Source: Oscillospiraceae bacterium
Lineage (GTDB): Bacteria; Bacillota; Clostridia; Oscillospirales; Ruminococcaceae
NCBI GenBank assembly: GCA_017408395.1
Contig: JAFQUQ010000039.1
Coordinates: 1-54,112 of the forward strand
Length of the DNA stretch: 54,112 bases
Direction: 5' to 3'
Made by a program: the position numbers and the translations under genes. The notes beneath the pieces were generated by a model, which made no database searches, was not told the DNA's origin, and saw only the letters and a list, made by a program, of their open reading frames with translations. Below, one piece after another: positions 45,294-54,112 of this stretch. Each line of letters starts with the position of its first letter. Position 1 is the first letter of the stretch.

Positions 45294-46343
45294 ATGAGCA
45301 CACACACATTTTTTCTCGGCGGAAGCTCTCCCGACGGTTTCCGCACACATTTCGGGGATATTGTAAACGATACGGATTTTCACACCTACATAATCAAGGG
45401 CGGTCCGGGCACGGGAAAATCCACCCTTATGAAAAAAATCGCCGCCGCCTTTGACGGGGATAAGGAGGTTTACCTCTGCTCATCGGACCCGTCCTCTTAT
45501 GACGCAGTTGTTTTAAAAGAGAGGAAAGCGGTCATTCTTGACGGTACATCACCTCACGTTTTCGAGCCTGAATATGCAGGTGCGGTGCAGGAAATTTTAA
45601 ACCTCGGACAGTGCTGGGACAGCGGAAAGCTTGAACGGCAGAAGGGGGAAATCATCGTCGCACACCGCAATTACAGCCTGCATCATCTGCGCTGCCGACG
45701 TTATCTTTCAGCCGCTTCATCGGTCATCGGGGATACCCTTGCAATAACAGAAGCCGCCCTTGACATACCAAAGCTTGAAGCCTTTTCACAGCGTCTTCTC
45801 AAAAAGCTTGTGCCGCACAAAAAGGACGGTGAAGGCAGGCTCAGCTATAAACAGATCTCCGCCGTAACGCCTGAGGGCTACAGGACTATCCTGCCCGAAA
45901 ATGATACGGTTTATCTGCTTAACGACGTAAATATGGCGGCAACGGACAGCTTTCTGCGTAAATTTTCGGAGCTTTTACGCAATAAAGGGTACGATACTGA
46001 AATAAGCGAATGCCTGCTTATGAAGGACAGTTTTTTCGAGCATATGCGAGTGCCTGAGGCGGGAATTTCCTTTATTTCCGCAAACAGGCTCAACGGGGTG
46101 ACGGTCGAAAATAAGAAGCCGCTTAATTTTGCACGGTTTTATAAAAAAGAGGTGTTGACCGCCAAGAAAACACGCCTTAAATTCAATTCGTCAGTATCGG
46201 CGGAGCTTACGGAAGAAGCGGTAAAATGCCTTGTCAGCGCAAAAACAGCGCACGATAAGCTTGAAGAGTATTACATCGGGGCGGTGGATTTCAAAAAGGC
46301 GGATAAAATCTGCAAGGAGCTGACGCAGAAGATAAAAAGCTGA
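45294..46343 (+). CDS. P-loop ATPase of unknown function (PRK06851-like)
   Basis: A 349-residue protein with a Walker A motif GGPGTGKST near residue 37. It resembles a clostridial family of duplicated P-loop proteins; the first half starts FFLGGSSPDGF and the second half contains DVNMAATDSFL. No partner gene is adjacent, and the function of the family is not established to my knowledge. GGAG is 10 nt before the ATG at 45294. The stop codon is only 3 bp from the 840-bp palindromic element. Confidence 0.75.
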   Translation: MSTHTFFLGGSSPDGFRTHFGDIVNDTDFHTYIIKGGPGTGKSTLMKKIAAAFDGDKEVYLCSSDPSSYDAVVLKERKAVILDGTSPHVFEPEYAGAVQEILNLGQCWDSGKLERQKGEIIVAHRNYSLHHLRCRRYLSAASSVIGDTLAITEAALDIPKLEAFSQRLLKKLVPHKKDGEGRLSYKQISAVTPEGYRTILPENDTVYLLNDVNMAATDSFLRKFSELLRNKGYDTEISECLLMKDSFFEHMRVPEAGISFISANRLNGVTVENKKPLNFARFYKKEVLTAKKTRLKFNSSVSAELTEEAVKCLVSAKTAHDKLEEYYIGAVDFKKADKICKELTQKIKS

Positions 46344-46570
46344 ACGGACACTAAAGTTTAGGTCAACCCTTTTCAAAGGGTTGCAGGGTTGAGGGGCAGA
46401 GCCCCCACGGGTTAAGGGCAGAGCCCTTAGCAAACCCAAGCTGAACAAAGCCGCAATTCAGAACATAAGGCAAAGATAAGTAAAATTATAGAATTTTTAC
46501 TATCTGAAAAAGCACCTTAATCTGAATTGCGGCTAAATTTTCTGAAAAAGTAAACTAAATCATATCTCAG

Positions 46571-46611
46571 CTGATAAAGGAAAAGAGCGACAGCGGTTTT
46601 TTCTTTATCAG
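46571..46611 (+). repeat. Palindromic element hairpin H1
   Basis: Stem CTGATAAAG (46571-46579) with CTTTATCAG (46603-46611), continued by A/T pairs to a 13-nt loop reading GAGCGACAGCGGT. Confidence 0.85.
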
Positions 46612-46657
46612 GTGACACACTAAATCAATGCCGAACAGCCCCTTGCAAATTCTCCCT

Positions 46658-46702
46658 CTCATATAAAAGAAAAGAGCGTAAGCGTGTTTTCTTTTATATG
46701 AG
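46658..46702 (+). repeat. Palindromic element hairpin H2
   Basis: A perfect 16-bp stem (46658-46673 with 46687-46702) and the 13-nt loop GAGCGTAAGCGTG. Confidence 0.88.
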
Positions 46703-46795
46703 ACACGACAAAGTAAAATTCACGGTTTGAGGTTGTCTGTATTTTCTGCAATGTGCAGATGATTTGCAGAAGTATAATTTTTTTATTCAGCCTGT

Positions 46796-46838
46796 CACAG
46801 AAAAAAGAAATATCGCTGCGCTCTTTCTTTTTTCTGTG
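46796..46838 (-). repeat. Palindromic element hairpin H3
   Basis: A perfect 15-bp stem (46796-46810 with 46824-46838). Read on the minus strand the 13-nt loop is GAGCGCAGCGATA, the counterpart of H2. Confidence 0.88.
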
Positions 46839-46881
46839 AGGTTTGGTTTGCAGAAAACGGTTTGTAATTGGTGTGGTTTGT

Positions 46882-46928
46882 CACCCGACAAAGAAAAAAC
46901 CGCTATCGCTCTTTTTCTTTATCGGGTG
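46882..46928 (-). repeat. Palindromic element hairpin H4
   Basis: A 17-bp stem with one mismatch (46882-46898 with 46912-46928). Read on the minus strand the 13-nt loop is GAGCGATAGCGGT, the counterpart of H1. Confidence 0.88.
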
Positions 46929-47207
46929 AGATATAATTTTGCTTAACACAGTTAAAATTTTAGCCGCAATTCAGATTAACGTACTTTTTAAGACAGAAGA
47001 AATCGGATGATTTAATTTATCTTTGCTTTATACTCTGAATTGCGGCTTTGTTTTTGCTTTTTGTTTTGCTTAGGTTTGCTAAGGGCTGCTCGCCCTTAAC
47101 CTCGCAGGGGACGCTGTCCCCTTGACCTAAGCAAACGCAGTTTGCTTTCAACCGATTTGAAAAGGGTTGACCTAAACTTTAGTGTCGGGTCGCTTTATGC
47201 GGTGAGA

Positions 47208-48398
47208 TTACTTATTATTCTTCATATACTCCAGATTTTTTGCAATAAGCTCACATCTCTGCTTTACGCAGTCAACGGAACGGAGTGGGTCCTCAGGTGT
47301 ATTGAAGGTATAGTCCATAAGCTTTTCCATTGTTGTTTTTGCAACGTGGAGTCTTGTATCGGAGGACGCATAGTAAATGTAAATATCTCCGTTTTCTCTT
47401 GCAATTGCTCCGTTTGTAAAGGTTACGTTTGAAACGTCGCCCACTCTTTCTTCGCCGTGCGGTGCAATGAAAAGTCCTGACGGTGATGCGATAAGCTTGG
47501 ACGGGTCGTTGAGGTCGGTTGCAAAAACGTAGATTACATAACGTAAGCCTGCGGCGGTGTTTCTTACGCCGTGAGCAATATGTATCCAGCCCTTGGGGGT
47601 CTTGATTGGAACTGCACCTGCGCCGTTCTTTACTTCGGTGATGGTGTGGTAAACTCTCGGAGAAATAACGGTTTCCTCGGTGCAAATCTCTGCGTTGGTG
47701 ATGTCCTTTGCAAGTCCGAAGCATACGCCGCCGCCTGAGCCTGTCTGAATGAAATCGTCCTGAGGACGGGTATAGAATGCGTACATTCCGTTTACAAATT
47801 CTGGGTGAAGCACAACATTTCTCTGCTGCGGTGATTTTGATTTAAGGTTAGGAAGTCTTTCCCATACCTTTAAATCCTTTGTGCGGACGATACCTGCCTG
47901 TGCAACAGCGGCGGAGAGGTCGTTTGAAGAGGTGTCCTTGCTTTCGGAGCAGAAAACGCCGTATATCCAGCCGTCCTCGTGTTTAGTCAGACGCATATCG
48001 TAAACGTTGGTTTCTTCGGGGTTTGTGTCGGGAAGCTGAACAGGGAAATCCCAGAATTTAAAGCCGTCAACGGGGCTGTCGCTTTCCGCTACGGCAAAGA
48101 AGGATTTTCTGTCGTTGCCCTCAACTCGTGCTACAAGGTAAAATTTACCGTCCATTTCAATAGCACCCGAATTAAGCACAGCATTTATGCCAAGTCTTTC
48201 CATAAAATAAGGGTTGGTTTCGGGGTTGAAATCGTATTTCCAGATAAGGGGAGCGTGTGCGGCGGTAAGCACGGGGTATTTATAGCAGTCGTAAATTCCG
48301 TTGTAACGGTCTGATCTCTCGTTTTTACGGCTGATAAGCTGCTCATATTTTTCGGAAGCAGCTTTAAAATTTGCGTTGAATTCTTCTCTTGTGGACAT
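47208..48398 (-). CDS. GH130 glycoside phosphorylase, probable 4-O-beta-mannosyl-glucose phosphorylase
   Basis: A 396-residue five-bladed beta-propeller enzyme of GH130. It closely follows the mannosylglucose phosphorylase group: RYPVLTAAH-type start (here [11 protein letters not shown]), [39 protein letters not shown] (Asp134, probable acid catalyst by family comparison), [45 protein letters not shown] and [12 protein letters not shown]. The reaction would be phosphorolysis of mannosyl-glucose to mannose-1-phosphate and glucose, the last step of mannan use in ruminococci. No signal peptide. AAAGGA precedes the ATG. It is monocistronic; no mannobiose epimerase is nearby. Confidence 0.9.
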
Positions 48399-53985: not shown

Positions 53986-54047
53986 GGGGACGCCCTCTCT
54001 TGCAGGGCGTCCCCTCTTCAAAAACAGTCCACTGGACTGTTTTTGAA
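53986..54047. repeat. Two large adjacent palindromes at the window end
   Basis: An 11-bp perfect stem (GGGGACGCCCT type, 53986-53996 with 54004-54014) is followed by a 31-bp near-perfect palindrome centred on 54032 (arms of 15 bp, AACAGTCCACTGGACTGTT at its core). The rest to 54112 (about 65 bp) shows no coding sequence I can support. This kind of repeat recurs in related genomes as far as I recall. Confidence 0.75.
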
Positions 54048-54112
54048 TTCACCCCTTGCGGAGCGCCTCTCAGGCAAGGAATTTCGCCCTCTGCGGAGGA
54101 CGACAAGGGCTC

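Follow-up and report, generated by a model that had tools for sequence, protein, structure and literature searches.

The 840-bp element between two convergent genes in the window, the whole stretch of 54,112 nucleotides from an Oscillospiraceae bacterium that was analyzed, was found to be one copy of a repeat that is numerous in its genome, restricted (within the reach of the search patterns) to part of one genus, oriented relative to its neighboring genes and built from hairpins with covarying stems. In the window's own genome, gene ends bearing the repeat were short of ordinary terminators. These properties were all obtained by calculation. We propose, tentatively and at somewhat less than even chances, that the element is a REP/BIME-like repeat and serves as a structured 3' trailer, whose terminating or shielding action we infer from its structure and position.

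Layout of the element in the window

The element fills the convergent-gene gap with two half-units in inverted orientation (Table 1). Each half-unit, roughly 270-320 bp long, spans from a TAAAG end to a terminal hairpin termed H, in the order terminal repeat (TAAAGTTTA...), G-rich hairpins, long inner hairpin with the stem CGCAATTCA, and H. Besides the four hairpins H1-H4, there is thus one long inner hairpin per side, and G-rich hairpins adjoin the ends. In most listed cases the feet of H were CTC before and GACA after the hairpin.

A sequence-only reading of the window had described a perfect 31-bp inverted repeat around a non-coding interior, filling the space between the two genes within a few bases. 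This was borne out. When the element was dinucleotide-shuffled 200 times, no perfect inverted repeat exceeded 15 bp (mean of the longest, 10.0), the distance from the 31-bp repeat to the gene ends is 3 bases on the left (stop at 46343) and 21 bases on the right (gene end at 47208), and the ORF calls of the window, in which genes are simple ORF picks, gave no gene expected within the element. Three hairpins of at least 15 bp with at most one mismatch were found in the element (not all four H hairpins pass this threshold), against none in every one of 200 shuffles.

The same reading had taken the four hairpins to be fully paired with a common loop. All four are present, but H1 has a G.G mismatch at the fourth pair and H4 a U.G pair, so the hairpins of the window are nearly, not fully, paired. 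The loop consensus GAGCGNNAGCGG fits H1 and H4, whereas H2 reads GAGCGTAAGCGT and H3 GAGCGCAGCGA, one base shorter. Likewise, H1 and inverted H4 do belong to one stem class, but H2 and inverted H3, also thought to match, belong to two different ones. The long inner hairpins of both sides and the G-rich hairpins by the ends were absent from that reading.

No Rfam family matched at gathering score across the whole window. No description of the repeat was found in the literature searched, and five short stretches of its end sequence led to no paper.

Table 1. Positions in the window of the element, its parts and the flanking genes.
Feature	Position	Strand	Basis or remark
Left convergent gene, AAA-type ATPase-like protein, 349 aa	45294..46343	+	ORF call; Pfam AAA_5 6.7e-5
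Right convergent gene, GH130-like phosphorylase, 396 aa	47208..48398	-	ORF call; Pfam Glyco_hydro_130 2.4e-21
Whole element, two inverted half-units	46347..47186	.	Sequence comparison, copies, half-unit analysis
Left half-unit, reads with left gene	46347..46620	+	
Right half-unit, reads with right gene	46881..47186	-	
Left terminal inverted repeat, opens left half-unit (GACACTAAAGTTTAGGTCAACCC...)	46347..46377	+	
Right terminal inverted repeat, opens right half-unit	47156..47186	-	
G-rich short hairpins of left half-unit (GGGGCAGAGCCCC, AAGGGCAGAGCCCTT)	46384..46441	+	Sequence; repeat comparison
Left inner hairpin, stem CGCAATTCA/TGAATTGCG	46449..46534	+	
Right inner hairpin	46962..47047	-	
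H1, terminal hairpin of left half-unit, class I	46567..46615	+	
H2, extra central hairpin, class III	46657..46703	+	
H3, extra central hairpin, class IV	46795..46839	-	Best G000 match of G005-only model
H4, terminal hairpin of right half-unit, class I	46881..46929	-	
Partial second copy, near end of the window's contig	53988..54094	.	

Copies and range of the repeat

The window's own genome (G000; 1.85 Mb in 61 contigs, 71% complete) gave 100 matches with the element as DNA query. Thirty-three stretches were then taken, and in these and the window the matches from eight queries merged into 44 segments, of which 12 exceeded 700 bp. The long copies were 72-80% alike to the window copy in their longest aligned pieces. 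Of the 44 segments, 12 were contig-end pieces of a related repeat, one such piece having itself been among the eight queries. This related repeat was found at 12 contig ends of G000 (L030-L039, L041, L016) and also at L040. Judged by eye, 10 of 13 lined-up ends had a flank of about 48 bases in common, beyond which a different terminator-like hairpin followed each time in those ends that were read.

The search for further copies that the sequence-only reading had called for was thus successful in the element's own genome, and it was so in three congeners as well. Among 41 genomes (G000 and 40 relatives) six had a match to the element, outside G000 nearly always to its first 60 bases only. In the congener G005, two such places proved to be complete elements with the plan of G000 and another sequence: their ends are inverted, the inner hairpin contains GCGCAATTCACAT, and the loops of the hairpins read GAGCGCAGCGA or GAGCGAAGCAA. 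With a G005 element as query, matches were obtained in four of six genomes of the genus (G000, G002, G004, and G005) and none in the congeners G001 and G003. The inner-hairpin pattern CGCAATTCA...TGAATTGCG, searched in 61 genomes, occurred 41 times in G000, 43 times in G002, 8 times in G004 and 71 times in G005, and was not found in the other 57; the reversed pattern was not found in any of the 61. In G002, terminal repeat and inner hairpin together identified 14 distinct half-units (a list of 15 included one place twice). Five of the 15 were followed by a hairpin H whose CGAAG-containing loop departs from GC-N3/4-GC; in the other ten, H was not found. In G004, parts of the repeat were all that was seen.

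A covariance model built from 20 G005 hairpins was searched against 119 genomes of the family. It gave eight hits in G000, mostly of class IV with H3 of the window as the best, while H1, H2, and H4 of the window stayed below passing; 117 of the 119 genomes, G004 included, gave no hit. The sole model hit outside the genus, in G141 (L268, ~1500-1546), was a hairpin that follows what by eye appeared to be a tRNA. It resembles the H hairpins of G005 in its GAGCGAAGCGA loop and T tract, and we took it as chance or convergence.

Within the reach of the pattern, element and model searches, the composite repeat is thus limited to part of one genus. Its terminal repeat ("head") ranges wider. The terminal-repeat pattern alone was found in at least 110 stretches of other genomes, the listed titles being Clostridia, and in 26 loci inspected by eye it usually headed a short hairpin repeat of about 65-95 bp. 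Seven site pairs were aligned (the related MAGs RUG158 and RUG213; phage-like contigs) and both members carried the repeat in each; as they had been selected for this, they are no measure of loss. In some of the seven, the middle hairpin is a different version. In the pairs L206/L224, L242/L243, and L180/L186, short TAAAG-headed repeats have unchanged ends but differing middle hairpins.

Orientation to genes and terminators at gene ends

We scored the orientation of the gene located within 350 bp of each TAAAG end. After removal of one double count, the gene that this end follows was co-oriented in 87 of 102 cases: 31 of 39 in G000, 44 of 50 in G005 and 12 of 13 in G002 (corrected from 13:1, which counted L298 twice). 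Solo half-units made up 11 of 43 in G000 and 28 of 56 in G005, and they were co-oriented at their TAAAG end in 9 of 11 and 23 of 25 cases, respectively. On their H side, the gene direction was the same in 9 cases and opposite in 15, so the orientation on the TAAAG side is not mere promoter avoidance. In a broader set that includes some G005 loci, the counts were 77 vs. 31 on the TAAAG side and 44 vs. 51 on the other side. Co-orientation could also stem from an insertion preference for the 3' ends of genes.

Similarity between the two arms of an element did not significantly exceed that between arms taken from different elements (16 and 13 elements; p = 0.15 and 0.30), and we therefore dropped the idea that the arms of the palindrome homogenize each other, of which this comparison gave no overall sign. 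Solo occurrence, gene polarity and independent arms together show the palindrome to be best seen as two units, one per convergent gene. Two directional half-units fit better than a single palindromic transposon, one of the possibilities raised from the sequence.

The hairpins of the window do not appear to be classical terminators: a standard terminator scan of 45800-47700 found none, compared to 2.2 in shuffles. Among the 3' ends of G000, an ordinary terminator was found at 5 of 27 element-bearing ends but at 14 of 23 element-free ends (p = 0.003; our own test, with 400 bases searched at element-bearing and 200 at element-free ends). G005 showed no difference (18 of 36 element-bearing vs. 8 of 18 free ends). 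Of the 18 terminators, 12 at its element-bearing ends consisted of the upper part of H with a T-rich arm, located 304-369 bases past the stop codon.

A half-unit located close behind a co-oriented stop codon should be copied into the mRNA as a 3' trailer. Such a trailer would most likely end transcription, shield the 3' end of the mRNA, or both. With one half-unit per gene, the element would be an inverted pair of a directional repeat, and both convergent messages would receive a trailer and could stop before reaching the opposite gene.

The GH130 gene was compared in four congeners, and no full element was found at it in any of them. By eye, the G005 gene is followed by an ordinary hairpin terminator and then a degenerate repeat remnant, and the G001 and G002 genes had no element within 1000 bases. 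In G004, a lone inner hairpin with a T tract lies directly past the stop codon (L254:2733-2802), the way an ordinary terminator does, and is possibly related to the composite's ancestor.

Paired stems, spread and known repeat families

Covariation was assessed in hairpins of the elements picked solely for their loop motif. They were retained when Watson-Crick pairs made up 8 or more of the 15, a threshold that still favors good stems. Loop-motif places numbered 49 in G000 and 63 in G005, of which 44 and 45 were kept; those dropped looked by eye mostly like chance hits of the motif. Standard pairs occupied 97.4% of cells in G000 (66.7% when shuffled) and 91.7% in G005 (72.0% when shuffled). Cells changed on both sides numbered 211 in G000 vs. 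58.4 in shuffles, and 127 vs. 35.9 in G005. None of 500 shuffles reached the observed pairing or double-change values in either genome, and swapping arms between hairpins left a mean of 7.3 (G000) and 6.8 (G005) of 15 pairs. The suggestion that changed stems keep their pairing thus extends to hairpins selected without regard to the stem, but an A.G mismatch next to the loop is common to 17 of the 45 G005 hairpins, and pairing is therefore not always full.

Hand-chosen class alignments gave 99.7, 99.0, 100, and 100% pairing with 9, 4, 2, and 5 pairs changed on both sides, but these sets are stem-selected: the 99.7% belongs to 20 of 25 listed G005 hairpins without the A.G-mismatch subclass, and the G000 alignments lack class IV, the window's H2 and those class II hairpins that differ in length. 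We accordingly discarded near-perfect pairing in G005 as a product of the selected set. Changed pairs in the aligned G000 classes cluster at positions 4-9 from the foot and at 14, with the rest of the stem held. Class III copies are identical save for two neighboring pairs, both changed on both sides without intermediates, and one loop base. Consensus folding of the inner hairpin gave the outer stem only, with no conserved sub-stems. The loops of G000 and most G005 hairpins read GC-GNA-GC or GC-GNNA-GC. Loops of the GNA/GNNA type in GC context, and GCGNAGC minihairpins as DNA, are very stable.

A strand-asymmetric excess of wobble pairs (G.U over A.C) would show that folding occurs at the RNA level. 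In the loop-chosen hairpins of both genomes the ratio of G.U to A.C events varied with the cluster cut, being 18:11 (p = 0.27), 20:11 (p = 0.15), or 22:11 (p = 0.08); counted by cluster, G000 alone gave 12:4 to 14:4 and G005 6:7 to 8:7. An earlier hand tally of 15:3, taken as proof of an RNA-level fold, was biased by stem-selected hairpins and was abandoned, as the loop-chosen set is not significant. We accordingly gave the trailer reading, also in its boldest form, lower odds than before and its rivals higher ones.

The repeat may have been mobile. Nested terminal repeats were found in copies on C25, C32, and C8, and only 4 of 67 flanking genes of G000 had a flanking homologue in G005 at 64% identity or more. 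Nested repeats, differing neighbors and the GH130 comparison speak for spread. At L012:2074-2940, an element has a further terminal repeat on each side, which looks like the insertion of one repeat into the center of another.

The strongest rival to a trailer is a MITE-like or TIRtron/REPtron-type element, the hairpins and ends of which bind a transposase acting in trans (RAYT or another HUH enzyme) whose polar preference for gene 3' ends sets the positions. This agrees with the many copies, some of them nested, with the lack of a full copy at the GH130 genes of the four congeners, with the exchanged neighbors and with the wide range of the terminal repeat, and the suggestion of a non-autonomous transposon made from the sequence stands to that extent. 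On the marks of transposition it is less well supported. Target duplication was not above mismatched flanks (mean 2.8 vs. 2.05, control range 0.7-3.1; 11 copies), and two scans of viral contigs for an empty site gave, apart from one far relative, only contigs that carry the repeat. In G000, which is 71% complete, neither a RAYT nor a Y1 transposase was found. A Y1/IS200 transposase was rejected as partner: Pfam Y1_Tnp was present in four of six congeners and missing in G000 and G002, so it does not track the element. No obvious transposase was seen by eye among the 25 largest ORF clusters near the terminal-repeat pattern, drawn from 1034 ORF entries in 113 loci.

RAYT-like genes (NF047646) were detected in G005, G002 and weakly in G004, all below the curated cut-off, and in neither of the element-free genomes G001 and G003; across six genomes this pattern is suggestive only. 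The 720 bases read around the G005 RAYT contained GTAG REPs and no H hairpins, which counts against its being the partner. This gene (L130:1303-1815, + strand; NCBIfam REP_Tyr_transpos, 60 bits with a cut-off of 80) carries two inverted GTAG palindromes, GTAGGGGCGCACA..., within its own reading frame. The GTAGGGGCGCACA core occurred 17 times in the G005 loci taken, in some cases mid-element, and the GTAGGGG palindrome did not occur in 196,009 bases of G000 loci. Finally, dead insertions should not keep mostly paired stems at the 72-80% likeness of the long copies. We regard a purely mobile element as a serious contender that is nonetheless rather unlikely.

Mutation alone might also keep stems paired, if, by template switching, one arm of a hairpin is rewritten from the other and a neutral repeat thereby stays complementary. 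The double changes without intermediates in class III would suit this, as would the similar numbers of G.U and A.C, which a strand-symmetric process would give. However, template switching should neither confine changed pairs to a few positions while the rest of the stem is held nor leave the A.G mismatches by the loop of G005 hairpins uncorrected, and the arms of the long palindrome are not homogenized. We find this explanation quite unlikely.

Least probable is a role of single-stranded or extruded DNA, as a nucleoid, gyrase or condensin-like binding array located where supercoils gather, at the ends of genes: strong palindromes, a loop that in G000 and G005 is mostly the GCGNAGC/GCGNNAGC minihairpin, the frequency of convergent gaps among resolved elements (15 of 25 in G000, 20 of 41 in G005) and the non-significant G.U excess are all compatible with it, but a symmetric DNA site needs no orientation to one gene such as the solo half-units show.

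Among known systems, the element comes closest to REP/BIME repeats. According to PMC3733652, these GTAG and CGTC families are high-copy palindromes found mostly behind genes and in gaps between convergent or tandem genes, frequently as pairs of opposite orientation, and thought to act as RNA; a REP has 20-40 bp, one hairpin and an unpaired tag, and the CGTC tag is often TGTC or CCTC. Element copies are likewise numerous, extragenic and located behind genes, and the feet of H, TGTC on one side and CCTC on the other, recall the CGTC tag as described there (PMC3733652). Unlike such a REP, the half-unit has several hairpins in ~270-320 bp, and its tag-like foot is partly paired. The listed H hairpins measure 43-49 nt with TC...GA feet that are mostly paired, and so fall outside the definition by a short hairpin and an unpaired tag. 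No RAYT flanked by the element was seen, none being found in G000 and the G005 RAYT being judged on 720 bases.

With TIRtrons and the TIR families of RAYT-like transposases, as described in the same paper (PMC3733652), the element shares long inverted ends, dimers and self-complementary tracts, but no transposase gene was found between or beside its copies. It resembles MITEs in being non-coding, bounded by terminal inverted repeats and present in many copies, and differs from them in that no target duplication and no parent element were found and in that the halves occur singly and are directional. Its position between convergent genes and the A-tract/hairpin/T-tract layout of the G005 H are those of bidirectional intrinsic terminators. 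Unlike these, it is hundreds of bases long and the window hairpins fail the standard scan; the upper part of H passes our own terminator test at 12 G005 ends.

A structured 3' trailer derived from a REP/BIME-like repeat would combine these features, having spread through part of an Oscillospiraceae/Ruminococcus-like genus by means of a putative mobilizing enzyme. In its boldest form, which we consider unlikely, a spreading multi-hairpin RNA trailer would have replaced ordinary terminators at dozens of gene ends, mobile and with one plan but diverging in sequence between species, its stable GNA/GNNA-type loop on a freely changing, mostly paired stem base possibly being read by a dedicated RNA-binding or termination factor.

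The related repeat at 12 contig ends of G000 is a cause of broken assemblies. If the trailer reading is right, one lineage has rebuilt many of its gene ends with a repeat that multiplies selfishly and yet is kept folded functionally. Dozens of natural variants built on one plan with shifting sequence would then allow a direct test of an old question, namely whether repeats of the REP type live as parasites or serve as mRNA tails.
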